A DNA stretch of 31,818 nt from a virus, in IMG/VR virus record IMGVR_UViG_3300010885_062701, positions 1-31,818 of that record; one strand, 5' to 3'. The notes below the pieces were generated by a model. It did no database searches. It saw only the letters and a program-made list of their open reading frames with translations, and was not told the origin of the DNA. A program made the position numbers and the translations under genes. This document shows positions 1,444-30,757 of this stretch, piece after piece (within the stretch, counting starts at the first letter, position 1; the number at the start of each line of letters is the position of its first letter).

Positions 1444-2979
1444 TTGTTTAGCATCTCAAAGTTCATGTTCGGTGCTGCTCCCGTCAATGAGGGGGGCAAC
1501 ACCAGAGCACTCGTTCGAGACCCAGAGACGGGCCTAGTTTCGGGTCCTGACCAGGTCAGGCAGTTCCGCGGTCGATCTGCTTTTGCTGAAAAAATAGATC
1601 TTCGATCCGGCAGGATAAATCGTCAGGATCTGAGACGCGACGTCATTGAGATGCTTCAGGTCCTCGATGATGAGTTCAACAACGACCACGGTGAGCCGCT
1701 TTGGGATCGAGCCCAACGCGATGATGTCCTGGGTTCCGGATTCGCCTTTAACGGATCATCAGCGCATCTCTTCGCCCCTCCAGAGACTCTGTCGGACGAG
1801 AAGTTCCTAGAGTTTAAGCCGACAGTGGGGGACATCGACCTCACGGTTCCAGTTGATAAGATGAACGGGCTCTTTTCAACGCTCAACCGTCGTGAGGATG
1901 AGCAGCTCACCCCAAGAATTGCGTACGTCGGTCACAACAAAAAGAGCCCGGGTCAGCACCAGATCAACGCTCTCTTCGCTTACACATGGGATCCCTCCGC
2001 TCCTCCCGGTGAGGGGGATACGTTCTTTCAGATTGACTTCGAAGGATCTGAGTACGAGGGCGGTCGACCCTCTCCGTGGGCAAAGTTTTCATACTCGTCC
2101 TCCTGGAGAGACATCGAGGCGGGTGTGAAAGGTCTCGCGCACAAGATCCTTCTATTCTCGCTTGCTGCAGTTCGTTCTCCCCCACCCATCGATGCACGTC
2201 TTGCCACGGACGCAGCCTCGGCCGAGAATCCGAAGATCTCGATGACCAAGGACAGGAAGTACGTGCCACCCAGCGCCGAGGAGATCGAGAGCAAGATCCA
2301 GGCTCGTGCGTCCGAGATCGAATCACAGCAGCCTCGAATAAGCCCGGCGACCGCTCGCCGTAAAGCTGAGACCGAGGTCAAGGCTGAGCTCTCAGCAGCT
2401 GAGAAGAAGCCCGCTCGTTTGAGACCCATGAAATCCCTCGATCTTGTGACTGGATACTCCGACAGGTACAGGAAGCTCGACTGGCAGCACAACGGGAATG
2501 ATGTCTACAAGTACTTGAAACGAGTTGAGAGAACCCAAGCGATTCGTGATATCAGACAAATATTCACAGGGATGTTCGGAGATAATCCGCCGCCTACGGA
2601 AAAAGAGATGGAGGACTTTGGATCATTCCTCGGTACGCTCGATATAATGAAAAACAGGATGACTCCACCTGAAATTGTTAGGGTTTACGAGGAGATGGCA
2701 ATCAGGCTCTTCGGTGCAGTTGCCCAGCAAATTTCAGCAACTGACAAGAACGAAGATATGAGCGTCAAGGAAAAGATCCTTGAGGTCTTCAGGCAAATCC
2801 TTCCCGAAGCTGAATCCTCCACGATGGACATCGAGGGTATGAAGGCAAGCTTCTACGCGAAGTACAAGGTTCGTGGAGAGGAAGGATTCACTGAGGACGA
2901 CACAGCTCCAGGTGAAGTCGATGAATCGAAAGCTTATCGTCTCAATCGTCTCATAGAATCTGCAATCTGGGGAAGCTGA
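1444..2979 (+). CDS. Pol-beta-superfamily nucleotidyltransferase-like protein
   Basis: This 511-residue protein most likely starts at TTG 1444, because AAGGAG (1432-1437) sits six bases upstream and no better start is near. An N-GSS motif (in FNGSSAHLF, about residue 103) is followed by K-P-T-V-G-D-I-D-L-T-V-P, with GDID at residues 129-132. This is the hG[GS]...DxD arrangement of Pol-beta-type nucleotidyltransferases, whose two Asp residues hold the metal. I have seen similar short phage proteins in T4-like genomes annotated only as nucleotidyltransferase. The C-terminal 250 residues are Lys/Glu-rich and helical with no recognised domain, and end in R-L-N-R-L-I-E-S. An early VNEGGN segment resembles the start region of other marine phage relatives. 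It overlaps the next gene at TGATG, so the two are probably translationally coupled. Substrate unknown. Confidence 0.6.
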   Translation: MFSISKFMFGAAPVNEGGNTRALVRDPETGLVSGPDQVRQFRGRSAFAEKIDLRSGRINRQDLRRDVIEMLQVLDDEFNNDHGEPLWDRAQRDDVLGSGFAFNGSSAHLFAPPETLSDEKFLEFKPTVGDIDLTVPVDKMNGLFSTLNRREDEQLTPRIAYVGHNKKSPGQHQINALFAYTWDPSAPPGEGDTFFQIDFEGSEYEGGRPSPWAKFSYSSSWRDIEAGVKGLAHKILLFSLAAVRSPPPIDARLATDAASAENPKISMTKDRKYVPPSAEEIESKIQARASEIESQQPRISPATARRKAETEVKAELSAAEKKPARLRPMKSLDLVTGYSDRYRKLDWQHNGNDVYKYLKRVERTQAIRDIRQIFTGMFGDNPPPTEKEMEDFGSFLGTLDIMKNRMTPPEIVRVYEEMAIRLFGAVAQQISATDKNEDMSVKEKILEVFRQILPEAESSTMDIEGMKASFYAKYKVRGEEGFTEDDTAPGEVDESKAYRLNRLIESAIWGS

Positions 2980-4781
2980 TGTCAACCGATATCTCGATCG
3001 AAGATCTCAAGAAGGTCATGGTTCGTCCTGACGCGTCTCCACGCGCGCGGGCCAATGATATAAAGAAAGCCCAGGTGTTCCTGAGTGATCCCAGCATCAA
3101 GATCGTAGAGAAGATCGACGGCACGAAGCTCACGCTCCTCCGTCGAAACAACGCGTTCGATCCAGAAGATTACACCAAGAATTGGTACATCGCTTACAAG
3201 GGCAACGTCATCTATCCGGGTGAGGCACGCGGCCTTGCTGCACGCGAGGAGGAGGTTCGTTCAGGATCATCCGGAACAGCTCAGTACTCTCTCGTTCACT
3301 CTCACCTTGCGCAGGTTCATAGAAACACCGCTGCGATTCCTCCCGGGACCGAATTCTTTCTCGAGTTTGTTCAGCGGAAGCCAACGATCAGCCGTGAGTA
3401 TCCTCGGAAGCATGGGATCTTCCTGACCCTCTTCGGTCCTTCAAGGTACAAGGTGACAGGAACCTATCTTGTCTCGAACATCACTCCGCAGAACGATGAG
3501 GCAAAGCTCGAGGAGTATGCCAGGTTGCTCGGAGTTCAGACATATCCCGTTCTCTTCGAAGGTAACCTCGAGTCATTCCAGGGATTGAAGTCGGGCATCA
3601 AGAGCGCTTCCATCGAGCGACGGGCTGCCGACCTTGATTCAAAGCTAAGAGCAGCTTACGGAGACTCTGGTCCTGATCGAGTTCTGAAGATAGTCGATTC
3701 TATCTACGATTTATTCTCTGACTTCGATACATCGCTCTCAACAGAGAGCGAGCGCTCACCAGCAGAGGGATCTGTCTTTAGGACGTCGGCCACCCAGGCC
3801 CTGTACAAGGCACTTCGTTTTGACCAGCACGATGTTGAGCATCGACAGGCGATCAAGCAGAAGTTTAGGGCTGCGACGAAGGAGGACGAACAGGCTTACT
3901 GGAACGGCATCGTTAGCATCGCCAATGAGATCTCGTCTGAGCACGCTCCCGCCCAGCGTCGAAACGTGCCCGAGAGCGATCTCGATGAAATTTTCGAGAG
4001 GATCCACGCGGAGTGTTACTTCGACGCTGCGATCTCGAATCGATTGGGTGCTCTAAATCATCCGAAGACTCTCATACAACGTCAGGAGGACCTGTTCCTC
4101 ACAACGAAGACGCAGGTGATGAAGCGTCTCGAGATTGGGACGCAGAACGGAATCAGCATTGGAATCTTCGTAGTCTCTGGAAAGCCCGTCCACGCTGGTC
4201 ACTGGCAGATGATCAGCCTCGCATCTCAGGAGTGCGACGAGGCTCTCATAATCACTTCGACCGCTGGCCGCGATGAGCTGCCACCGGGCGTGATGATCGA
4301 CGCGTGGAAGGCGGTGCTGGAGCCCCAGTTTCACCGTGATTTTCCGAATGCGACCCTCATCATCTCACCGGAATCTCCGCTGAGCCTCGCTGTCGATAAG
4401 ATGCGTCAGCTGAAGAACGTTGTCAGCAAGTTCGTGTTCTACTCTGACGATGAGGACGCTCGGGTGAAATACTCACCCTCGAAGATGGCTGATAACATCA
4501 GGGATCCAGCTGTCATAGAGAAATTCGAGCAGCGTCCGGTATCGAGAGCTGAGACCGTCCAGATCTCAGGGACAAGGATGAGGCAGTTTCTCGCCGCCGA
4601 TGATAAGCAGTCATTCGACCAGTACGTGCCCCAGACCTTGAGTCCGGAGATGAAGGACAAGTACTGGTCCATCCTGAAGGGTGAGCACGGAGCGATTGTC
4701 GATTCCCGCAGAAGGTCATCTCTGCTTAAGATTCTTTTTGAAAGTGTCAAGAACAAAAATAAATACAAGAAAGGGAGATAA
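2979..4781 (+). CDS. fusion of ligase-like (KxDG) domain and HxGH nucleotidylyltransferase
   Basis: This 600-residue protein starts at ATG 2979, overlapping the previous stop. The N-terminal half has V-E-K-I-D-G-T-K, with K45-I-D-G48 matching motif I of covalent nucleotidyltransferases (RNA/DNA ligases and capping enzymes), then E-F-F-L-E-F (about 127-132) like motif III, and A-E-G-S-V-F (about 265) like motif IV. The C-terminal half has H405-A-G-H408, the (H/T)xGH nucleotide-binding motif of NMN/nicotinate adenylyl- and cytidylyltransferases, and I529-S-G-T-R-M-R535, close to their ISSTxxR motif. A ligase-type adenylyltransferase is thus joined to a Rossmann-type adenylyl- or cytidylyltransferase. 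A role in RNA repair or NAD-linked nucleotide metabolism is plausible but inferred. The tail is basic and ends with L-L-K-I-L-F-E-S and a Lys-rich segment. GGGAG for the next gene lies inside its last codons. Confidence 0.68.
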   Translation: MSTDISIEDLKKVMVRPDASPRARANDIKKAQVFLSDPSIKIVEKIDGTKLTLLRRNNAFDPEDYTKNWYIAYKGNVIYPGEARGLAAREEEVRSGSSGTAQYSLVHSHLAQVHRNTAAIPPGTEFFLEFVQRKPTISREYPRKHGIFLTLFGPSRYKVTGTYLVSNITPQNDEAKLEEYARLLGVQTYPVLFEGNLESFQGLKSGIKSASIERRAADLDSKLRAAYGDSGPDRVLKIVDSIYDLFSDFDTSLSTESERSPAEGSVFRTSATQALYKALRFDQHDVEHRQAIKQKFRAATKEDEQAYWNGIVSIANEISSEHAPAQRRNVPESDLDEIFERIHAECYFDAAISNRLGALNHPKTLIQRQEDLFLTTKTQVMKRLEIGTQNGISIGIFVVSGKPVHAGHWQMISLASQECDEALIITSTAGRDELPPGVMIDAWKAVLEPQFHRDFPNATLIISPESPLSLAVDKMRQLKNVVSKFVFYSDDEDARVKYSPSKMADNIRDPAVIEKFEQRPVSRAETVQISGTRMRQFLAADDKQSFDQYVPQTLSPEMKDKYWSILKGEHGAIVDSRRRSSLLKILFESVKNKNKYKKGR

Positions 4782-4784
4782 ATC

Positions 4785-5852
4785 ATGTTAATTTCTGAGT
4801 CCACGCTGCGTCGTATCATACGCGAGGAAGCTCACAGAGCGATGAGAGAGCAGGCAGCCACACGCACTATTTCCGGTGCGATCAAGGTCGGACAGGGAAT
4901 TCCCTTGGGAATGCCAGGTACCCCGATCAACGCTGGAAACTGGACGATTCCTGTGAGCCTAGCCGATAGGATGCGTAATGACCCGACGTTCCTACAGGTT
5001 CATGCTGGCGCCGGTGCAGGGCAGGGACAGGTCACCTTAAAGACCGGATCCAAGGGAACCGCTGTCAGCATCTATCAGGAGCTTCTGCAGCTTGCCATGA
5101 ACGCCTCAGGCATTCCACTGCCGAAAGGATTCAAGGTCGACGGTGACTACGGTCCTAACACTCAGAAAGCGACGATAGCCTTCCAGAACGCCGCTAGCCT
5201 TCCAGTGGACGGCGTCGTAGGTCGAAATGTTATTGCAGCTCTCATTGGAAAGCAGGCCGCGATCACGGGTAAGACTGGCATCGACACGGCTCCTGTGCAG
5301 TCGACATTGCAGGTTCAGGCGCCCAACACTCCGATCGGTCAGGATCAGACCGCGCGCGATGTGAACACGGTCATGAACCTGCTGGCAAGGTCGGTCCAGA
5401 CGGCGATCGATCAGTATCAGGATACCACAAACGGCAGAAACATCTTTGACCAGAAGATGCTGTTCGCCCGCGATAACCTGCGGTTCGCAGTCCTCCTCGC
5501 AAATGCAGCGCAGACGGCGAGATCTGTTGGAACCGTTGCGACCCGCAGTGAGTTAAGCATGATCATCCAGAAGCTGACCGAGATCAAAGTCCTATTCGCA
5601 AATCATCTAGGAGTTCCGGCTACAGGTGACATAACGAAGGGAGAGGACAGCGCGGTTGAGATGACATCTGGCACCAATCGTGAGGCTAGCAGATTCATCT
5701 ACATCGTCAACAACCCAACGGCTGACAGCCTCCTGATCCTTGCCAAGAAGCCGTACGCTCTGGGCGGTGGAACCATGGTCGGGGTTGCAGGTGCCATGAC
5801 CTCACAGTCCGCGAAGAAGACGTACTTGGCCAATCAGGCCAGCGTGAAGTAA
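4785..5852 (+). CDS. peptidoglycan-binding protein (PG_binding_1 type) with leader peptide
   Basis: This 355-residue protein starts at ATG 4785, three bases after the previous stop, with GGGAG at 4773-4777. Residues 2-16 (I-S-E-S-T-L-R-R-I-I-R-E-E-A) repeat the leader of the LysM protein at 465. Residues about 84-154 form a peptidoglycan-binding domain of the PG_binding_1 type: L-K-x-G-S-x-G-x-x-V-x-x-x-Q-x-L-L, then V-D-G-D-Y-G-P-N-T, then A-F-Q-N, then V-D-G-V-V-G-x-x-V-I-A-A-L. The remaining 200 residues are unrecognised and contain no visible amidase, muramidase or peptidase motif. It closes the accessory block and is followed by a strong hairpin. It may be a virion-associated wall-binding protein, or head or internal protein; the binding domain is firm, the location is not. 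Confidence 0.78.
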   Translation: MLISESTLRRIIREEAHRAMREQAATRTISGAIKVGQGIPLGMPGTPINAGNWTIPVSLADRMRNDPTFLQVHAGAGAGQGQVTLKTGSKGTAVSIYQELLQLAMNASGIPLPKGFKVDGDYGPNTQKATIAFQNAASLPVDGVVGRNVIAALIGKQAAITGKTGIDTAPVQSTLQVQAPNTPIGQDQTARDVNTVMNLLARSVQTAIDQYQDTTNGRNIFDQKMLFARDNLRFAVLLANAAQTARSVGTVATRSELSMIIQKLTEIKVLFANHLGVPATGDITKGEDSAVEMTSGTNREASRFIYIVNNPTADSLLILAKKPYALGGGTMVGVAGAMTSQSAKKTYLANQASVK

Positions 5853-5871
5853 GTTTCACACGTTGATCAAT

Positions 5872-5898
5872 GAACGAGCGGCTTCACGCCGCTCGTTC
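5872..5898 (+). terminator. strong hairpin, probable terminator, after the peptidoglycan-binding gene
   Basis: A perfect 11-bp stem (GAACGAGCGGC, 5872-5882; GCCGCTCGTTC, 5888-5898) encloses a 5-base loop. The tail CTATTTAAGG is only partly T-rich, so this may be a leaky terminator or an mRNA-stabilising 3' structure. It separates the accessory block from the neck genes. Confidence 0.65.
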
Positions 5899-5921: not shown

Positions 5922-7094
5922 ATGTCAACATTCACGACCACCTTAAACCCAACTCCATTCGGTTTTTTCGATTCCGACACCGCGTTTCAGGCTGAAGCTG
6001 ATGCGATGGTGGCATTTGTGAAACGTCGTCTTGGAGATGACGTTCTGTCTGTCGAGTTGACGAAGAAGCAGATTTGGTCATGTTTCGAGGAAGCTTTCCT
6101 CGAATACGGATCGATCGTTAATCAGTACCAGGCGAAGAGCCAGCTGCTCTCGCTTCTCGGCATGCAGACTGGAAGTCTCGATGAGGCAACCCAGAAGCTT
6201 CCTCGTGACACCCTCAACTACATCGTGCGTTTGGCTGAGCCCTACGCCGTTGAGGCTGGTCTCGGTGGAACCTACAATGCAGTTTCGGGCGCGATTCAGC
6301 TTCGTCAGAATGTGCAGGATTATGATCTCTACACTGATCTTGTGGATCCATCGACCGGAACACCTGTCGTGAGCTCATCTCTAAATCCAGAGCATCGAAA
6401 GATGAGGATCTTCGAGATCATGCACTTCAACCCATCCGCAGCGTATCGATTCTTCGATACGACATCGGCCATCAACTACCTCAACAACGAGTTCAGCTTC
6501 GAGTCGTTCACGCCAGAGACCGTCTTTTATGTGCTGCCGGTGTTCGAGGACATCCTCCGTGGCGGTCAGATGAACATCTCGAACAGGGTCCGTCGTTCGA
6601 ACTACAGCTACCGTGTAACGGGAACGAAGATCAGGATATTCCCATCACCGACAGCGACAAACCCCCTGAAGCTCTGGGTCCGTGTGGGATTCGAATCCAA
6701 CCCGTTAAACCCATCGATACCGGATGCCTCGGTGTCGGGTGTCTCAAATCTATCCAACGTTCCCTACGGTAATTTCGTTTACGCGAGGGTGAATTCCATG
6801 GCTCGTCAGTGGGTCCGGCAGTACGCGCTTGCCCTCGCCAAGGAGCTTTTGGGTATGATCAGGTCCAAGTTTGGGTCCGTTCCGATCCCGGGGGGTGAGC
6901 TTCAACTGGACGGCGGAGATCTGAAGTCATCGGCGAAAGAGGAGAAAGATAAGCTTCGAACAGATCTCAAGGAAATGCTGGACTCGATGACTTACAACAA
7001 GCTCATCGAGACGAAGGCAGCAGAGGTTGACAATGTTCAGAAGATACTCAAGGCGACACCGATACCGATGGGTCGTGTCATAACGATCGGGTGA
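5922..7094 (+). CDS. 13: neck / head-tail connector protein, T4 gp13-like
   Basis: This 390-residue protein starts at ATG 5922 with GGAG at 5911-5914. The N-terminus has the helical pattern of head-tail connectors, V-K-R-R-L-G-D-D-V-L-S-V-E-L-T-x-x-Q-I-W-S-C-F-E-E-A, followed by Y-G-S-I-V. The C-terminus has Y-A-L-A-L-A-K-E-L-L-G-x-I-R-S-K-F-G-S-V-P-I-P-G-G and a Leu-Asp-Gly element, which I associate with the neck protein placed just before gp14 in T4-like marine phages. It would join portal vertex and tail after DNA packaging. It is longer than T4 gp13 (about 309 residues). Order (neck, gp14-like, gp15-like, sheath, tube) supports the call. The number 13 is by position and pattern, not proven. 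Confidence 0.62.
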   Translation: MSTFTTTLNPTPFGFFDSDTAFQAEADAMVAFVKRRLGDDVLSVELTKKQIWSCFEEAFLEYGSIVNQYQAKSQLLSLLGMQTGSLDEATQKLPRDTLNYIVRLAEPYAVEAGLGGTYNAVSGAIQLRQNVQDYDLYTDLVDPSTGTPVVSSSLNPEHRKMRIFEIMHFNPSAAYRFFDTTSAINYLNNEFSFESFTPETVFYVLPVFEDILRGGQMNISNRVRRSNYSYRVTGTKIRIFPSPTATNPLKLWVRVGFESNPLNPSIPDASVSGVSNLSNVPYGNFVYARVNSMARQWVRQYALALAKELLGMIRSKFGSVPIPGGELQLDGGDLKSSAKEEKDKLRTDLKEMLDSMTYNKLIETKAAEVDNVQKILKATPIPMGRVITIG

Positions 7095-9070: not shown

Positions 9071-12000
9071 ATGTCGGAACAAATCTTTCGCTCTCCTGGA
9101 TTCTTTGAACGGGAGATAGAGCTTACCGCCCCGGGCGCGCAACCGACGGGCGTCCCAGGTGGGCTCATCGGAGCCGCAGCCTCGGGGCCGGCCTTTGTGC
9201 CGACGACCGTGTCGTCTTTTTCGGATTTTTCGGCTCGCTTCGGCGGCCTTGACCCGGATCGTCCTGCAACTTACGCCGCCAATGAGTGGCTGAAGCACAA
9301 GGGTGCCCTCACCTTCATCCGCGTCCTCGGCGCGGGTGCAAACGCGAGCATGTCCGACGTCGCAACGACCCTGACTCAGGGTGTGGTGCGCAACGCTGGA
9401 TTCAAGGTGACAGGATCAACCGTCGCCCTCCCGGCTGGCGACGCCCGTAAGACAGGAGCCGTGCAGTTCCTTGTCGCCCGTCACTCGATCCCAGCAAGCT
9501 CAACCACACCTTCTGAGTGGAAGGGATTCCCGATTTTCAGCGAGAACCCAAGCTTCAACCCGCCCTCCATCGGAGACACCCTGAACATCGTTCGTGGCGT
9601 TCTCATGTTCCCGACCGGTGCGCGAGGAATGGTTCTCGACATGACGGGAGCAAACTCCCAGTGGTCCGACGGCGGCTCGGTGATCGATGATGTTGCCTCA
9701 ACGGATCTCAATGCTGCTTCCTCGAACTACAAGAAGTTCAAGTTCGTGATCTCGAGCTCGCAGGGCTCATCTTTCGGGACGACAGACGGCTACAGCGGGC
9801 TTCGAATCCTGACAGCGTCTCTCAACCCGAGCGCGAATGATTACTTCGGTAAGGTCTTCAACACGGACCCGAAGAAGTTCCAGGCTGAGCAGCACGTGCT
9901 CTACCTCGACTTCCCGATCGAGGACGAGCTCGTCGGTCTCGATGTCACGGGTGACAGCTGCGTCGCGGTCGCCTCAGGATCGTCGAACACATACCTCCAG
10001 AATTTTGGGCGGTTCGACACACGTTACACGACAGCCCGGACTCCCGCGATCATCTCGCAGCCCTTCGGAAGCCTCGAGCATGAGCTCTTCTACTTTGAGA
10101 CTCTCACCGACGGAGAGTCAGGAAACGCTCTCTACAAGGTCTCGATCTCCAACGTGAAGGCCTCGACGGATCCGAGAAATCCGTACGGCACCTTCGATGT
10201 CAACGTTCGCGACCTGTACGACTCTGACACTTCTCCCCAGATTCTGGAGACCTTCGCAGGTTGCGACATCAACCCAGCGAGCCAGAACTACGTCGCTAAG
10301 AAGATCGGTGACCTCAAGGTCTCTTACAACTTCGACGCAAGCGACGAGTCCGAGCAGCGTCTTGTGATCAATGGAAACTTCCCGAACGCAAGTCGCAGGA
10401 TCAGGGTCATCACGGCAGCTGGTCTCACGACGGGTGTTGTTCCCGCAAGCGCCCTTCCGTTCGGATTCAAGGGTATCCCGGTTGTCAGAACATCGCAGAC
10501 CCTGACCGACACTTCCTCGGCTCTCACCGAGGGAACGAGAACCTACGGTGCTGGTGCGAACGCTCTCCCGAGACTTTACTGCAGCAGCTCCGTTGCGACA
10601 ACCCTCACGGGCTCGATCGTTCCACCGCTTCCGTTCCGCTTCAAGGCGACGAAGGGAACCGTGGACGGATCTGCCTACATCGGATCGCCGGGTCTCCTCG
10701 AGATTCCTGACTCACGCTACCACTGGGGCGTGAAGTTCGAGCGTCTGCCTGCGACAGCTTCCATCTCAAGCGCCGTGATGAACTCCAACGATGGGACCGA
10801 GTTCAATCCTCTTATCCTTTCCTACTCGAAGATGCAGGGAATCCAGAAGCTCTACGCTCTCGTGACTGGATCCGATGCCGATATCTTCAACGCGAATAAG
10901 TTCACTCTCGCTAGGGTCGCACTTTCCAACACATCACTAACGGATGTCACGGGAACTGTCGAAGCTCACATGAAGGAGACGGCTTACATCAGGAATGGAG
11001 TTCCGAGCACAACGGACTACAGGATCGCTGATGCCGCTCTTGGTGGAAGCCGAATCACCTTCGCCTCACTGCTTTCAGGTTCGGCGAACACATTCAACAA
11101 GTTCGCTGAGTACGCAAAGTTCTCGACGATGTTCTACGGTGGATTCGACGGAGTCAACATCCTCGACGCAGCTTCTGCGAAGCTCGGGGATCGTGCCACC
11201 TCAACGGAGTCCGGTGGGCTCGCGGCAGGTGGTGTTGAGCCGATCGCAAGATCAGGTCTCGGTTACGACCCGGCGGGCAGCAGCCTTAGCAACAACGCTG
11301 TGAACTCCTACAGGGTCGCTTCGAAGCTCATGACTGACAAGTACACCGTCAATGTCAATGTGATCGCAACGCCCGGCGTCCGCGAGCCGCTCGTGACCGA
11401 CTACCTCGCTCGCAGGCTTTCGTCCTACGCTCTTGGAATGTACGTTCTTGATGCTCCGGCTTACTCCGACGCAAATGTTAGAATCTTTGAGGATTCTGCG
11501 TTGAAGCCGAACGTCACGAAGACCGCTGACGCTGTTACCGCAAGGTCACTCAACAACAACTACGTCGCTACCTACTTCCCGGATGTGTTCGTCAATGATA
11601 CAACAACGAACAGAAGGGTCAAGGCGCCCGCCTCCATCGCTGCTCTCGGCGCTCTTGCGTACAGCGACAGAGTCGCCTACCCATGGTACGCGCCGGCTGG
11701 ATTCAACAGGGCTGCTCTTGACTTCGTCACCAACGTTGAAGTAAGGCTTAACACATCCGATCGCGACTACCTGTACGATAACAGAATTAACCCAATCGCG
11801 ACCTTCCCTGGTAACGGTTTCGTTATCTTCGGACAGAAGACACTCCAGGTTTCGAAGTCGGCCTTCGATAGGGTCAACGTTCGCAGGCTCTTCCTCGAGC
11901 TCAAGCGCGTTATCCAGGACGTGGCACGTGGCCTTCTGTTCGAGCCCAACGACGCGACAACGAGGCAGTCTTTCATCGATCGAGCCACCCCGCTTCTGAG

Positions 12001-12181
12001 TCTCATCAAGGCGCAGGCTGGTATCGAGCAGTTCAGGATCGTCATGGATTCAACGAATAACACTGCTGCCGATGTTGCCGCGTACAGGTTGAATGGTCGA
12101 ATTGTTGTGGTTCCAACAAGAGCGGTAGAATTCATCGCTGTCGACTTTATCATCACACCGGCGGGCGTCGAGTTCGTCTAA
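9071..12181 (+). CDS. 18: tail sheath protein, gp18-like, copy 1
   Basis: This 1036-residue protein starts at ATG 9071 with AGGAG at 9060-9064. The N-terminus (F-R-S-P-G-F-F-E-R-E-I-E, then G-G-L-I-G-A-A, then F-I-R-V-L-G-A-G) is the sheath opening. The C-terminus (A-F-D-R-V-N-V-R-R-L-F-L-E-L-K-R, L-L-F-E-P-N-D, then V-D-F-I-I) is the conserved domain that links subunits around the tube. It is far longer than T4 gp18 (659 residues); the extra length sits in the middle and probably forms surface domains. The 65-base gap upstream (9006-9070) holds only this ribosome site and AT-rich sequence with no hairpin that I can see. A second complete copy follows at 12221. Confidence 0.92.
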   Translation: MSEQIFRSPGFFEREIELTAPGAQPTGVPGGLIGAAASGPAFVPTTVSSFSDFSARFGGLDPDRPATYAANEWLKHKGALTFIRVLGAGANASMSDVATTLTQGVVRNAGFKVTGSTVALPAGDARKTGAVQFLVARHSIPASSTTPSEWKGFPIFSENPSFNPPSIGDTLNIVRGVLMFPTGARGMVLDMTGANSQWSDGGSVIDDVASTDLNAASSNYKKFKFVISSSQGSSFGTTDGYSGLRILTASLNPSANDYFGKVFNTDPKKFQAEQHVLYLDFPIEDELVGLDVTGDSCVAVASGSSNTYLQNFGRFDTRYTTARTPAIISQPFGSLEHELFYFETLTDGESGNALYKVSISNVKASTDPRNPYGTFDVNVRDLYDSDTSPQILETFAGCDINPASQNYVAKKIGDLKVSYNFDASDESEQRLVINGNFPNASRRIRVITAAGLTTGVVPASALPFGFKGIPVVRTSQTLTDTSSALTEGTRTYGAGANALPRLYCSSSVATTLTGSIVPPLPFRFKATKGTVDGSAYIGSPGLLEIPDSRYHWGVKFERLPATASISSAVMNSNDGTEFNPLILSYSKMQGIQKLYALVTGSDADIFNANKFTLARVALSNTSLTDVTGTVEAHMKETAYIRNGVPSTTDYRIADAALGGSRITFASLLSGSANTFNKFAEYAKFSTMFYGGFDGVNILDAASAKLGDRATSTESGGLAAGGVEPIARSGLGYDPAGSSLSNNAVNSYRVASKLMTDKYTVNVNVIATPGVREPLVTDYLARRLSSYALGMYVLDAPAYSDANVRIFEDSALKPNVTKTADAVTARSLNNNYVATYFPDVFVNDTTTNRRVKAPASIAALGALAYSDRVAYPWYAPAGFNRAALDFVTNVEVRLNTSDRDYLYDNRINPIATFPGNGFVIFGQKTLQVSKSAFDRVNVRRLFLELKRVIQDVARGLLFEPNDATTRQSFIDRATPLLSLIKAQAGIEQFRIVMDSTNNTAADVAAYRLNGRIVVVPTRAVEFIAVDFIITPAGVEFV

Positions 12182-12220: not shown

Positions 12221-15200
12221 ATGGCTGCGCCAGGCATAACACTAAACGAGATCGATAGCACCGGTGGTGTAACGGAGGTTCAACCCTCGGGCCGCTCCGC
12301 CGGTGTGATTGGAACGGCAACGCAGGGAACGGCGTTCGTGCCGATCACCTTCGCGAATAACACACAGTTCACAACTGAGTTCGGCAATCCGGATGCGAAT
12401 TATCACGCTCCCTTTGCCCTGTACCAGTGGCTTAGCAACGCCTCAGCTGGAACATACGTCAGGGTTCTCGGCGCCGGAGACGGAAACAAGAGAACGACAG
12501 GCGCCACAAACGCAGGAAGCGTGACAAATGCAGGATTCGTGGTCGGCTCCCGGAAGGTTCAGGTGTCCAACGGTCAGCTCGGCAACAATCCCTACGCGAC
12601 TGCCGGCGGTCTGGAAGGTAGGACGTACTTCCTCGGATGCTACATGTCCGAGTCTGCGGGCTCCTGGTTACTTTCCGAGCCAGGAATCCAGACATCGACG
12701 GCAGCCCAGCCGATCGTTCGCGGCGTTCTTTTCGCAGCGTCGGGAGTTCAGATCACCGTATCAAGCTCAGCGCCGGGAGCGACATCTGATATCTACTCAT
12801 TAGCTGCGACGACTGCCAGCCCTGCAAAAGGCTGGTTCACCGGATCGCTCGATCTCCGGAGCGGAGAGCAGACATTCGTGCTCTTCCTGAACGGACACAC
12901 CGATTCCGCTGGTTACCCAAGCATCCTCACGGCATCATTCAACCCAACTTCCGACTCCTACTTCGGAGCAAAGTTCAACAGCAACCCACTTCTTCTCGAA
13001 GAGCACGGCTACGTCCTCTACAATCACTACGACGTTCTGGACGCTTTCGCAGTCCCAACTGGATCCGGAGTTGCAGCTGAGGCTGCGATCCGTCGTGTTA
13101 GCACGTCAGCCGCTGTCGAAGAGATCGTGTTCTGCCTTTCCGGCTCTCAGTCAAGGAACAACGGAACCACAACATTCCCGAACTACGACGGATTCGAGGA
13201 CAGGTACGGTCATCCGATGACCCCGTACGTAACATCCCAGAACTTCGGTGGGACTCGCTACAATCTCTTCAAGATCCACGCTCGTGGCGACGGTGCAGCG
13301 ACCAATGAACTGTACAGGGTCGCGATCGAAAGCATCAAGTACCCTGCTGCTGGCTCTTACGCTACGTTCACCGTGAAGATTCTTAGCTTTACCGGAGAGG
13401 ACGGCTACGCGACCGTATACGAGACATACTCTGGATGCGATCTTGATCCTGATAGCGACAACTTCATTGGAAAGAAGATCGGTGACCAGAACACCTACTT
13501 CGATTTCGATCGTACCGCTGATGCCCAGAAGATCATTGAGGAAGGACTCTACGGCAAGGTCTCACGTCGGGTCAGAGTTGAGCTCTCTGATGAAGTCATC
13601 AACAAGGTCATCCCGTCGAACACTATTCCCGTCGGTTCACGTGGTCTCTACCACCTAGTGACCTCTGGGTCTGGTTTCATGTCGACTGGTTCATCGGGCC
13701 CGTCGGCTCACCTCAACGTTCCCCTGACGAACGCGCGTGAGGCGCCGGTCTTCTTCCGTCGCAGCATCAACGTAGGAGACGTTGCCGGTGGCGCGAACGC
13801 CACGGGCGAGAGCAAGCTCTACTGGGGACCCCAGTTCGGCCTCTACAACTCAACGACTCGTCCTAACGATGGAGTCTCGACCTCCACCGAGACACTCGGT
13901 GCTGGCGGACTTTCAAGCTACACCAAGTACTTCCCGAAGTACCACACGACCTATCAGAACCCGTGGGTCGGTGACAATGATGGCGCAGCCACCGTCAACG
14001 GCTCCGTGGTGGACGCTGACCTCTTCAACAGGAACCTCTTTACGCTTGAGAACATCCAGGTTCAGACAAGCTCCGGCGGTACTCTCGACAGAGACCGTTG
14101 GGACGAGGCTGTGTACCAGAGGGACGGAATTCTTGACGCCAGCCTCGGTGGACGTTTCATCGACACAACGATCGATTTCCCGTCCAGTACTCCGTCATCT
14201 TACCTCAAGTTCGTGACCTTCATGCAGGGAGGCTTCGATGGTCTCAACATCTTCGATGCAGATAAATTCTACATGCGTGATGCTGCGGCTCGTCGAGAGA
14301 TGGACTACAGCAACCAGGGTCAGCTGAACGGACCGACGGTCGCTGCCTATCGCAAGGCGGTAGACATCATGGGTAACAAGACTTACTCGGACATCAGCGT
14401 CCTCGCGATTCCGGACACTCGTCACCCCGCGATCACCGACTACGCTCTCTCGGCGATGCAGACAAAGTTCGATGCTCTTTACATCGCCGATGTCGAGCTG
14501 AAGGACGATAACAACAACTTCGTGACTGCCTCCATCAACGCCGGGTCTTCATACCCCAACGTCAACGTCGCGTTCACATCAACGAGGTTCAAGAATCGCA
14601 GCCTCAACAGCTCATTCGGTGCTGCTTACTTCCCGGACGTGAACGTCAGCGTTGACCCGGGAACCGGCGTAGCAGTTAGCACACGCCTTCCAGCTTCGAC
14701 CCTGGTCCTCGGCGCCTACGCGCAGAACGATCGGATCGGATTCACTTGGAGCGCACCGGCAGGCTACACAAGAGCGGTTATTCCTGGAAACTCCCTTAGC
14801 ACGATACTCAACAACGATAACATCAACACCGTTTACGATGCTGGTATCAACCCGATCGTTTCGGTTCCTGGCGCGAATATCGTGATCAATGGACAGAGGA
14901 CAACTCTCGTTGAGGGCTCGGCTCTTGATCGTGTTAACGTCCGTCGTCTGCTCATCGAGGTTCGTCGTCGAGTGAAGGCTGTTGCTTACGGTCTTCTTTT
15001 CGAGCCGAACAGAGAGTCGACCATCGCTCGTTTCAATGCTGCCGTTACACCGATAATGAAGCAGATCCAGTCCCAGCGCGGTGTTGAGAGGTATCGCGTG
15101 CAGATTGACACCACCACCACCACACAGGCTGACATAGAGAATAACACGATTCGTGGTAAGATCTACCTGCAGCCGACAAAGACCGCAGAGTTCATCTCGA

Positions 15201-15238
15201 TTGATTTCGAGGCGACAAATGCTTCAACCTTTGTCTAA
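12221..15238 (+). CDS. 18: tail sheath protein, gp18-like, copy 2
   Basis: This 1005-residue protein starts at ATG 12221 with AAGGAG at 12207-12212. It is a clear paralogue of the protein before it: G-V-I-G-T-A against G-L-I-G-A-A, R-V-L-G-A-G in both, the central G-C-D-L/I-x-P-x-S-x-N and K-K-I-G-D in both, F-Y/M-x-G-G-F-D-G-L/V-N-I in both, and L-D-R-V-N-V-R-R-L plus L-L-F-E-P-N near the end. It therefore keeps both the N-terminal arm and the C-terminal linking domain and looks functional. The two copies have diverged widely outside these blocks, so the duplication is old. A mixed sheath, or different copies for different tail zones, is possible; which copy is the main sheath cannot be told here. 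Confidence 0.92.
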   Translation: MAAPGITLNEIDSTGGVTEVQPSGRSAGVIGTATQGTAFVPITFANNTQFTTEFGNPDANYHAPFALYQWLSNASAGTYVRVLGAGDGNKRTTGATNAGSVTNAGFVVGSRKVQVSNGQLGNNPYATAGGLEGRTYFLGCYMSESAGSWLLSEPGIQTSTAAQPIVRGVLFAASGVQITVSSSAPGATSDIYSLAATTASPAKGWFTGSLDLRSGEQTFVLFLNGHTDSAGYPSILTASFNPTSDSYFGAKFNSNPLLLEEHGYVLYNHYDVLDAFAVPTGSGVAAEAAIRRVSTSAAVEEIVFCLSGSQSRNNGTTTFPNYDGFEDRYGHPMTPYVTSQNFGGTRYNLFKIHARGDGAATNELYRVAIESIKYPAAGSYATFTVKILSFTGEDGYATVYETYSGCDLDPDSDNFIGKKIGDQNTYFDFDRTADAQKIIEEGLYGKVSRRVRVELSDEVINKVIPSNTIPVGSRGLYHLVTSGSGFMSTGSSGPSAHLNVPLTNAREAPVFFRRSINVGDVAGGANATGESKLYWGPQFGLYNSTTRPNDGVSTSTETLGAGGLSSYTKYFPKYHTTYQNPWVGDNDGAATVNGSVVDADLFNRNLFTLENIQVQTSSGGTLDRDRWDEAVYQRDGILDASLGGRFIDTTIDFPSSTPSSYLKFVTFMQGGFDGLNIFDADKFYMRDAAARREMDYSNQGQLNGPTVAAYRKAVDIMGNKTYSDISVLAIPDTRHPAITDYALSAMQTKFDALYIADVELKDDNNNFVTASINAGSSYPNVNVAFTSTRFKNRSLNSSFGAAYFPDVNVSVDPGTGVAVSTRLPASTLVLGAYAQNDRIGFTWSAPAGYTRAVIPGNSLSTILNNDNINTVYDAGINPIVSVPGANIVINGQRTTLVEGSALDRVNVRRLLIEVRRRVKAVAYGLLFEPNRESTIARFNAAVTPIMKQIQSQRGVERYRVQIDTTTTTQADIENNTIRGKIYLQPTKTAEFISIDFEATNASTFV

Positions 15239-15807: not shown

Positions 15808-15844
15808 ATCTGGTCCATGGTATATTTACTATCATGGACCAGAT
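15808..15844 (+). promoter_or_regulatory. 15-bp hairpin covering the HNH endonuclease start codon
   Basis: Arms at 15808-15822 (ATCTGGTCCATGGTA) and 15830-15844 (TATCATGGACCAGAT) pair over 15 positions with one G-U and a 7-base loop. The ATG at 15834 is in the right arm, so readthrough RNA from the tube gene would hide the start. No Shine-Dalgarno sequence is visible in front of the ATG. The loop region TATATTTA matches 6 of 8 bases of the T4 late promoter. A transcript starting inside the loop would lack the left arm and free the start. T4 intron endonuclease genes are controlled in this way. Confidence 0.72.
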
Positions 15845-16640
15845 TTCTTTTAAGTGCCCTTCTTGCGTAGACTATTCGACCGACAGCCTGGATTCGCTTC
15901 GAATCCACTGCCAGAAACGCCATGGAATCACCGCACGTGATCTCTACGTGAGCTTGTTTATTCCTGGCGGCCAAGAACCCACGTGCGGCTGTGGGTGCGG
16001 GACGACGACCAAGTTTAACTCCCTTCAGAAGGGATTCTCGGGGTACATTCTCGGACATGCATCTCGCGTCAAGAATAATTGGGGAAATAATAAGGCTGCG
16101 CTGGCTAAGAGCCTTGAAGCGCGTCGCAAAGAAGAGCGATGGGGTTGTAATCCGTGGAATCGAGGTAAAACGAAAGAAAATGACTCCGATTTCGCGAAGT
16201 TATGCGAAATTGCGTACGGATCTGACAAAGAAAGAAAGAGAAAGTCAGAAATGATGACGAGACATTGGCAGACCGGGGTCATCGTTCCGCTCACCGGCTC
16301 GGCTCATCCGCAGTGGAAGGGCGGGACATCGACAATCGGGACGCTGTGCCACGGCAGCTCGCGACTCTACAAGCTCTGGAAGTTCCCAGCCCTGCAGCGA
16401 GCAGGGTTCAAGTGCGAGCGTTGCGCCGCGACCGACGATCTCCACGTCCATCACAGCGAGGTTCGTATGGCGGAGATCATCCATCGGTGCGCCCCCACGT
16501 CGGATGAGATCAGCTGGGAGGATCAGGCAGCGTGGGTCGAGCGGGTGATCGACTGGCACGTTGAGATGATGCCCACCGCCGAGGTTCTCTGCCATCGCTG
16601 CCACGGTGAGGAGCACCCATCACTTAACTTTGATCCGTGA
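15834..16640 (+). CDS. free-standing HNH homing endonuclease with N-terminal zinc finger
   Basis: This 268-residue protein begins with a C2H2-type finger (C8-x2-C11-x13-H25-x4-H30), followed by a C-G-C-G-C element near residue 52 and G-H-A-S, common in phage HNH proteins. The middle (about 85-150) is Lys/Arg-rich and has N-P-W-N-R-G-K-T-K-E, like the DNA-binding NUMOD-type repeats. The HNH nuclease is C-terminal: C194-x2-C197, H204-V-H-H207, and C253-H-R-C256-H-G-x-x-H261. It would cut DNA of relatives lacking the insertion and spread by repair. It interrupts the tube to gp26-like gene order. By eye the middle part is more A-rich than the neighbouring tail genes, fitting horizontal origin. 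Cleavage site unknown. Confidence 0.86.
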   Translation: MDQISFKCPSCVDYSTDSLDSLRIHCQKRHGITARDLYVSLFIPGGQEPTCGCGCGTTTKFNSLQKGFSGYILGHASRVKNNWGNNKAALAKSLEARRKEERWGCNPWNRGKTKENDSDFAKLCEIAYGSDKERKRKSEMMTRHWQTGVIVPLTGSAHPQWKGGTSTIGTLCHGSSRLYKLWKFPALQRAGFKCERCAATDDLHVHHSEVRMAEIIHRCAPTSDEISWEDQAAWVERVIDWHVEMMPTAEVLCHRCHGEEHPSLNFDP

Positions 16641-29546: not shown

Positions 29547-29581
29547 TGTGAAAAAGTAGGGTGGTCTCGTTAGGGTTGCTC

Positions 29582-30757
29582 ATGCTATCAATCTCGAGAT
29601 ACGCCCTTAACTCACCCAAGAACCTTGTCTTCGAAGGTGGTTCATCCCGTTGGGAGTCGGAGACTCAAGGATCCTGGATGTTAGGCGACCCTCAGGCATC
29701 GATGTCTGTTATCGCTCTCTTCGAGACTCTCGGGATAGAATCACCCGCACCGATCCCTCCGGAGTATGAGAGATCGATGGATGGCCTCGCGCGTGGCCAA
29801 GTTCCGTGGCCCCTTGTCATTCCGATCGGTGCGCTCCGGGATCACGCTGAACGTGTCAGCAGCATCCTCGAGGAAGCTCTGGAACGTCTCGAGGGCTACG
29901 CAGATGTCATGGCTCGCTCACGCCGCGTGCTCGAGGCCCTTCGACCCTGTAGGATCGATCTCGCAGCGCTTCGGATCTGCCAGACAGGATCGTCCTCTCA
30001 CATTCTTGATTCCTTCGAACCAGGACCTGATTTCATGGTTCAACCACCGGTCTACTCCCATGCGACCGCAACGGGTCGACTCACGGTGAAGGAGGGCCCG
30101 AGGATCCTCACGTTGCAGAAGGATCATCGTCGGATTCTGTCGAGCAGGTTTGACGGCGGTCAGATGATGCAGATCGACTTTGTGTCTCTCGAGCCCCGAG
30201 TCCTTCGCTTGCTTCGAGCTGGTGTTGCACCCATCGACATCTATTCCGACGTCTCAGAACGTCTCGGGGGGGCCGCGAATCGCAGGCAGGTGAAGCTTGC
30301 CACGCTGAAGATGCTTTACGGATCTTCACGGGCTGGTGTAGCCGAGGAAGTCGGAAATCTTAGCTCCAGCATGGTGAAGCAGATTGAGGATTACTTCGGA
30401 CTTTCAACCCTTCGGGCACGTCTCGCATCAGATCTGGGACGAAGTGGTATGATCAAGAGTCACTGGGGCCGGCCGCTCCCGGAAGCTCGTGACCAGCATC
30501 TTCTCGTTTCACACTTCACGCAATCCACAGCTGTTGACGTCGCGCTCGGAGGATTCGGTGACGTCTTGGAACGTGTCAAGGCACTGGATCTCGATGTCGT
30601 TCCCTGCTACGTCCTGCATGACGCGCTTCTTGTTGATGTTCATCCGGGCTCGATGGAGCAGCTGATGGCAATTTCTGACGAAGGAATAGATGTCGAGGGC
30701 TTGGGACACTTCGAAGTTTCCCTTTCACCGGCCTATGTATCACAGGAGACTGCATGA
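29582..30757 (+). CDS. polA: compact family A DNA polymerase (palm and fingers)
   Basis: This 391-residue enzyme is about the size of the polymerase part of Klenow. Motif A is D199-F-V-S-L-E204-P-R206 (E. coli DYSQIELR). Motif B is R234-R-Q-V-K238-x3-L242-x3-Y246-G247, giving equivalents of R754, K758 and Y766, with Leu in place of Phe762. Motif C is H346-D347. Other family A blocks are present: T-A-T-G-R-L before motif A, H-W-G-R-P-L-P and F-T-Q-S-T-A-V-D-V. D199 and D347 are the expected metal ligands, so it should be active. No 3'-5' exonuclease motifs are seen. ATG 29582 has AGGG six bases upstream; GTG 29561 in the same frame would add seven residues. T4 itself uses a family B polymerase. 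Confidence 0.88.
   Translation: MLSISRYALNSPKNLVFEGGSSRWESETQGSWMLGDPQASMSVIALFETLGIESPAPIPPEYERSMDGLARGQVPWPLVIPIGALRDHAERVSSILEEALERLEGYADVMARSRRVLEALRPCRIDLAALRICQTGSSSHILDSFEPGPDFMVQPPVYSHATATGRLTVKEGPRILTLQKDHRRILSSRFDGGQMMQIDFVSLEPRVLRLLRAGVAPIDIYSDVSERLGGAANRRQVKLATLKMLYGSSRAGVAEEVGNLSSSMVKQIEDYFGLSTLRARLASDLGRSGMIKSHWGRPLPEARDQHLLVSHFTQSTAVDVALGGFGDVLERVKALDLDVVPCYVLHDALLVDVHPGSMEQLMAISDEGIDVEGLGHFEVSLSPAYVSQETA

Follow-up and report, generated by a model that had tools for sequence, protein, structure and literature searches.

A ligase-HIGH nucleotidyltransferase fusion and its Pol-beta-like partner: a candidate packaged RNA-repair pair of T4-like phages

In phage T4, the prohead protease gp21 cleaves behind (L/I)xE motifs. 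Internal proteins reach the head by means of short N-terminal capsid-targeting leaders, and Alt also loses a C-terminal piece (PMC9026906; PMC5694885). Surveys of jumbo phages have predicted that RlaP cooperates with RNA ligase by restoring lost nucleotides (PMC7824862), and NMNAT-like proteins have repeatedly been detected in cyanophage virions by mass spectrometry, as for S-SCSM1 ORF91 and S-CREM2 ORF154 (PMC9602691, PMC10665884). Here we analyze two overlapping genes from a viral stretch of 31,818 nucleotides (IMG/VR record IMGVR_UViG_3300010885_062701), referred to below as the window. The second gene encodes an RNA-ligase-like domain fused to an adenylyltransferase-like domain of the HIGH superfamily (ligase-HIGH protein); the first, which had been missed in an earlier note made on this DNA from the sequence alone, is a Pol-beta-like nucleotidyltransferase. 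The best reading overall, to which we give a probability of about 48%, is a rebuild-and-seal RNA-repair pair of a T4-like phage that would be packaged in the head and injected. The genes and domains concerned are the following.

1444-2979, + strand: Pol-beta-superfamily nucleotidyltransferase partner, 511 amino acids, TTG start; PHROG 19290 (function unknown)
2979-4781, + strand: ligase-HIGH nucleotidyltransferase fusion P0001, 600 amino acids; PHROG 27149 (function unknown)
2979-3818, + strand: RNA-ligase-like covalent nucleotidyltransferase domain, about residues 1-280, with catalytic Lys45 at 3111-3113, motif III E125/E129, motif IV E263-G264 and motif V K277
3819-4136, + strand: helical linker, about residues 281-386, with invariant Q283, R289, Y307 and D371
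4149-4688, + strand: HIGH-superfamily adenylyltransferase-like domain, residues 391-570, with HAGH at 405-408 and ISGTRMR at 529-535

The open reading frame (ORF) at 2979-4781 is real, and IMG/VR contigs encode homologues that match it over the full length, with 63-84% identity or, in more distant contigs, 25-35%. A homologue occurs in 41 IMG/VR loci and in 21 records of isolates (15 Campylobacter, 6 Vibrio); a pattern-limited scan of GTDB genome contigs found no relatives. The motifs K45-I-D-G48, E125-FFL-E129-F130, A262-E263-G264, H405-A-G-H408 and I529-S-G-T-R-M-R535, which had led the earlier note to call a covalent nucleotidyltransferase joined to an HxGH/ISxTxxR nucleotidylyltransferase, are all present at these positions, and their conservation in relatives shows that they did not arise by chance. 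Both domain calls proved right by sequence motifs, Foldseek, VIA-align and profile search: the N-terminal part resembles T4 RNA ligase 2 and residues 391-569 resemble PPAT/NMNAT enzymes, so that we regard the identity of the two domains as practically certain. Searches of P0001 alone against Pfam, NCBIfam and PDB sequences gave only sub-threshold matches, with no match to Pfam RNA_ligase at an E-value of 1; the domain signal thus comes from relatives and from the AlphaFold model (mean pLDDT 88.5). In two records, L044:5917-7569 and HM246721.1 (L048), the gene is split into two frames by damage or sequencing error. In another (L014:5998-8961) it runs into the downstream wall-binding gene to give one 987-residue ORF, either a true fusion or again a sequencing error.

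The closest structure in Foldseek is T4 RNA ligase 2 (gp24.1, Rnl2; entry 2hvr, E-value 7e-7, probability 1.0), and Naegleria and archaeal RNA ligases are matched as well. In a 34-sequence alignment of relatives, on which all conservation counts for this family are based, K45, D47, G48, K50, T52, Y73, E125, E129, E263, G264, V266 and K277 are identical in every sequence. Eight of the 34 match Pfam RNA_ligase (PF09414); one of these, L022 (genome G002), which is 65% identical to the window protein, exceeds the curated cut-off (27.5 bits against 27) over model positions 3-169 of 171. None of the 34 matched a Pfam DNA ligase model. The motif I segment EKIDGTKLTL resembles EKIHGTNFSL of T4 Rnl2, and the likeness to that enzyme and to PF09414 extends to the N-terminal fold, the K-x-x-G-T of motif I, the EG of motif IV and one lysine of motif V. 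In contrast to Rnl2, the window protein has a HIGH domain fused via a helical linker, LYK as motif V, a Pol-beta partner and a C-terminal tail with an hxE motif (h, hydrophobic). An hhalign comparison with T4 Rnl2 as a single sequence was unsuccessful, and a global alignment misplaced the motifs.

The second half of the protein carries (H/T)xGH and ISxTxxR on a Rossmann-type fold, which places it in the HIGH superfamily. H408 is identical in all 34 relatives and position 405 is always H or T. Foldseek matched this half to PPAT/NMNAT enzymes with E-values from 4e-5, and also retrieved large cytidyltransferase-like proteins of cyanophages. VIA-align superposed residues 391-569 on PPAT/NadD (Z 12.7, root mean square deviation 2.9, 152 residues aligned), and a profile search found NMNAT 9x6f at an E-value of 1.4e-5. 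Among the family members, 10/34 match CTP_transf_like and 17/34 Citrate_ly_lig in Pfam, and 30/34 match the PHROG family NMNAT. P0001 itself remained below the cut-offs of the curated NCBIfam models for NMNAT of the NadR/NadM type (TIGR01526, 15.8 bits against 341; PRK01153, 13.5 against 127), and a tblastn search with the HIGH domain against isolate phages gave no useful match.

These matches raise the question of an enzyme centred on NAD, an option that the earlier note had also offered: the HIGH domain would be an NMNAT making NAD+ from NMN and ATP, either for NAD pools at infection or for an NAD+-using ligase. The NMNAT profile and PHROG matches speak for it, as do the cyanophage virion proteins, for which the authors suggested a role in NAD levels (PMC9602691). 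However, PPAT, NadD and NadM tie in the VIA-align ranking, so that structure does not single out one substrate for the domain. NAPRTase (NadV-type) occurs in 1 of 14 genomes only and Tpt1/KptA in none of the 14. The arginine of ISxTxxR (R535, present in 26/34) is replaced by I or E in 8/34 relatives, while the ligase residues are invariant. A ligase that recycles NAD was set aside for want of domain support. No NAD-ligase Ia-type domain was recognised by eye at the N-terminus. Relative to phage NAD salvage by NadR/NadM, which shares a HIGH adenylyltransferase domain, the window protein lacks a P-loop kinase or Nudix domain and, save in that one genome, a NadV-type partner. NAD synthesis is thus weakly supported, and we hold the NAD-centred explanation to be distinctly improbable. 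The HxGH glycine is likewise replaced by A or E in 5/34 relatives. Since the ligase residues never vary while the HIGH site decays in several lineages, the sequences suggest that ligation is the core, conserved activity of the fusion protein and that the HIGH domain plays an accessory part and may have lost its activity in some lineages.

The partner gene was recognised through locus L031, where a single 958-residue ORF extends beyond the HIGH domain into a further domain with a GDIDI motif. A homologue of this fused Pol-beta domain was found in 14/14 genomes or records tested, mostly as the gene directly upstream of the ligase-HIGH gene. In IMG/VR, it accompanies the ligase gene in all 36 loci that hold flanking sequence (34 upstream, one downstream in L045 and one fused in L031); the remaining loci end at the ligase gene and do not enter this count. 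The two window genes overlap by stop and start codon in the sequence TGATG. In Campylobacter phages, the Pol-beta and ligase-HIGH genes lie far apart within the same genome. In Xanthomonas phage X1, the three enzymes are split among individual genes that together lie within 3.4 kb, namely a Pol-beta homologue (hmmsearch 1.3e-50), an ORF in which KLDG, EGVV and YKIV elements were recognised by eye, and a HIGH nucleotidyltransferase (7.6e-17). G104-S105, D130-x-D132 and D198 of the partner, the signature of Pol-beta nucleotidyltransferases, are invariant in 31/31 sequences, and its AlphaFold model has a pLDDT of 86.5. That the partner and the ligase-HIGH protein are a functional pair can hardly be doubted. 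One genome (G008, locus L046) has two adjacent paralogues of the partner (L046:3665-4681 and 4675-5877) upstream of the ligase-HIGH gene, as well as a NAPRTase gene and a separate RNA_ligase gene.

The arrangement of a Pol-beta-type nucleotidyltransferase beside an RNA ligase recalls the RNA-repair theme of RlaP in jumbo phages (PMC7824862). As opposed to that system, the window partner is not RlaP by profile: its family matched no Pfam model at an E-value of 0.1 or better, RlaP (PF10127) included, and a PDB profile search with the family returned nothing relevant. Nor were the RlaP-ligase pairs described as packaged (PMC7824862). Of the options in the earlier note, RNA end repair is now favoured because the ligase is RNA-ligase-like and linked, genetically and physically, to a Pol-beta-type partner. 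The same two enzymes could instead repair or protect the DNA ends of the injected phage genome by gap filling and sealing. In structure the partner matches DNA polymerases mu, beta and lambda and TdT best, and proteins packaged together with the genome would be well placed to act on DNA ends. By itself the Pol-beta fold cannot decide between DNA and RNA, because CCA-adding enzymes belong to the same superfamily (PMC7824862). The resemblance of the ligase to RNA ligases and to Pfam RNA_ligase, with no member matching a DNA ligase model, argues against DNA-end repair, as does the presence in Campylobacter phage CPt10 of another gene that is annotated as a phage DNA ligase. We consider this explanation rather unlikely, and RNA the likely substrate. 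A CCA-adding enzyme gene lies near the module in Vibrio phage phiKT1024, which fits tRNA as a substrate.

We propose that genes 1444-2979 and 2979-4781 form a translationally coupled module for rebuilding and sealing RNA ends. The Pol-beta-like enzyme would restore nucleotides lost from a broken RNA end; the RNA-ligase-like domain would adenylylate itself at K45 (lysyl-AMP), activate the 5'-phosphate and seal the break. The HIGH domain may serve as an accessory adenylyltransferase of NMNAT/PPAT type that acts on a small substrate. In the window lineage, both proteins would be made as precursors in the head operon, taken into the prohead and trimmed by the gp21-type protease at hxE sites. Delivered with the DNA, they could begin within the first minutes to mend tRNA or other RNA that has been broken, as by anticodon nucleases of the host. 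Host defences that cut tRNA set in early, and the usual picture of phage RNA repair is one of enzymes made after the onset of infection; early delivery of the pair would suit defence against anticodon nucleases.

The candidate processing sites of the pair (slashes mark the putative cut) are the following.

1444-1491, + strand: putative N-terminal propeptide of the Pol-beta partner, MFSISKFMFGAAPVNE/GGN; pLDDT below 50 at residues 1-17
2959-2976, + strand: putative C-terminal propeptide of the Pol-beta partner, after RLIE/SAIWGS
4734-4778, + strand: C-terminal tail of the ligase-HIGH protein, hxE/x site LFE/S (residues 586-588) and 12-residue putative C-propeptide, presumably cut by the prohead protease

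The site at the end of the Pol-beta leader in the window is VNE, where V replaces the L/I of the T4 rule. In the major capsid protein gp23 of the window lineage, LLRE/S aligns with FLTE/A of T4 gp23. The Pol-beta family has a constant GGN start. In 11 distinct cases the initiator methionine stands directly before it, and in 25 cases a leader whose last residues are [LIVMF]xE. Among isolates, the Campylobacter Firehammervirus phages have a leader on the Pol-beta protein (FILE/GGN) and the Vibrio phages have none. No genuine third state exists at this position: the two sequences classed as other comprise one that starts directly behind a stop codon, without a standard start codon ahead of GGN, and an internal match. 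The leaders themselves are dissimilar among lineages while the boundary is constant, as in MFSISKFMFGAAPVNE, MKLSELMFILE, MIEVAFESFFNSKYPLLE and MKTYLNE. In the ligase-HIGH protein, [LIV]xE occurs 4-13 residues before the C-terminus in 20/20 near relatives, in an otherwise variable tail; in several distant members, the DISI start that is common to the family follows an N-terminal leader, for example MKRFSDLIFEAA or MNFRNYLIETA.

The earlier note had found it odd that the ligase-HIGH gene lies among head and neck genes, and this placement was borne out, the pair being located between gp23 and the neck genes. Three long relatives of the window have, in this order, genes for the portal, the prohead protease and the core and scaffold, then gp23, Pol-beta, ligase-HIGH and the neck; the gp21-type protease is encoded 7-8 kb upstream of the pair and gp23 directly upstream. 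The prohead protease model PF03420 scored above its cut-off in 9/14 records. The pair has several attributes of T4-type internal head proteins, namely a putative propeptide ending in hxE, an encoded protease and a location in the head cluster. This location is best explained by packaging of the proteins into the head, a reading absent from the earlier note. The likeness to T4 internal head proteins and Alt lies in a leader or C-terminal tail ending in (L/I/V)xE, in the head-cluster genes and in the prohead protease; as opposed to these, the cargo of the window, as read from its genes, would be an RNA-repair pair and not a nuclease inhibitor or an ADP-ribosyltransferase. The cyanophage proteomes offer independent support for HIGH nucleotidyltransferases of T4-like phages travelling in virions, although S-SCSM1 ORF91 and S-CREM2 ORF154 were not shown to have a ligase domain or a Pol-beta partner.

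Alternatively, the module could be an ordinary intracellular RNA-repair system that stands in the head operon by chance of genome organisation, its hxE motifs remaining unprocessed. Such short motifs are indeed common (2.1% per position as background frequency of the tripeptide), and in distant lineages the module stands away from the head cluster and has no leaders. Wherever a lineage has a leader, the hxE motif nevertheless stands immediately before GGN, despite the dissimilarity of the leaders, and the C-terminal motif is kept in 20/20 near relatives. This alternative appears unlikely to us, and on the evidence of the genes the pair is probably packaged into the head in the window lineage. 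Jumbo-type lineages such as L027 lack leaders and carry the module far from the protease, so that packaging would be a lineage trait.

Several observations weigh against packaged RNA repair as a whole. The structural matches of the Pol-beta partner in VIA-align, although all to X-family polymerases (50/50), have middling Z-scores of 7.3-7.9, and Foldseek gave a best E-value of 0.04, with none below 0.001. RlaP (PF10127) was found in 0/7 genomes, and of the RNA-repair companions looked for in the 14 records, a PNK 3'-phosphatase was, like Tpt1/KptA, not found. Motif V of the ligase is LYK and not KxK, only K277 being invariant and position 275 never K among the 34 relatives; the window protein should therefore not be named an Rnl2-family enzyme without reserve. 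Several lineages have neither propeptides nor a head location (for example L027 in genome G003, where the protease is encoded about 130 kb away). In Campylobacter phage CP220, the ligase (CPT_0026) and the Pol-beta homologue (CPT_0100) are not among 11 identified gel bands, which sampled strong bands only (PMC2853527). Finally, LFE in the C-terminal tail of the ligase could belong to a helix with another role.

Each part of the system belongs to a known superfamily. Of the fusion, its obligate partner and a modular protease boundary on an RNA-repair enzyme, no description was found in the literature searched, outside of which lies a 2016 survey of RNA-repair systems in biological conflicts that may mention the architecture. 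Two phage protein families that are unnamed in the libraries searched (PHROG 27149 and PHROG 19290) gain a proposed function. In its fullest form, which we put forward tentatively and with somewhat less than even confidence, a complete kit of three nucleotidyltransferase superfamilies (RNA-ligase-like, HIGH and Pol-beta) would be packaged and injected, and tRNA or other RNA broken by host defence would be rebuilt before any phage gene is expressed. This would be counter-defence acting as the phage enters, and the proteolytic leaders would be modules gained or lost from lineage to lineage. If true, a repair pair carried by the virion and acting before phage translation would explain the place of such enzymes among head genes, and the alternation of Met-GGN with leader-hxE/GGN would provide a readable rule for predicting packaged phage proteins.

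In the window, proteins predicted to bind the cell wall are encoded on both sides of the pair (LysM, 465-1427; PG_binding, 4785-5852). The neighbouring features are the following.

1-351, + strand: C-terminal end of the T4-like major capsid protein gp23, matching the C-terminus of the gp23-like protein of L058-L060; context
465-1427, + strand: LysM-domain protein with leader MKITEARLRQILRE/E; candidate co-packaged neighbour
4785-5852, + strand: PG_binding_1 protein with leader MLISESTLRRIIRE/E; candidate co-packaged neighbour
5922-7094, + strand: neck protein, similar to head-tail adaptor Ad2; context

The two wall-binding proteins, together with many ORFs of genomes G001 and G002 (L083-L094), have an N-terminal amphipathic leader of the form M-R-I-T-E-x-x-L-R-x-I-I-R-E-E. 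Leaders of this type are also found on short core-cluster proteins and appear to form a second class of leaders that target the capsid, with an hxE site at their end. A 398-residue protein encoded after the baseplate genes (29561-30757) matches the C-terminal part of phage DNA polymerase (PHROG 17) and has relatives in G001-G004. That this PolA-like ORF shares a packaging leader (SISRY...VFE/GG) was considered and rejected, as its homologues do not keep it. Two genes resembling tail sheath genes lie in tandem (9071-12181 and 12221-15238), each encoding about 1000 residues, much longer than T4 gp18. An ORF resembling HNH endonucleases (15834-16640), located between the tail tube and baseplate hub genes, is likely a mobile insertion.

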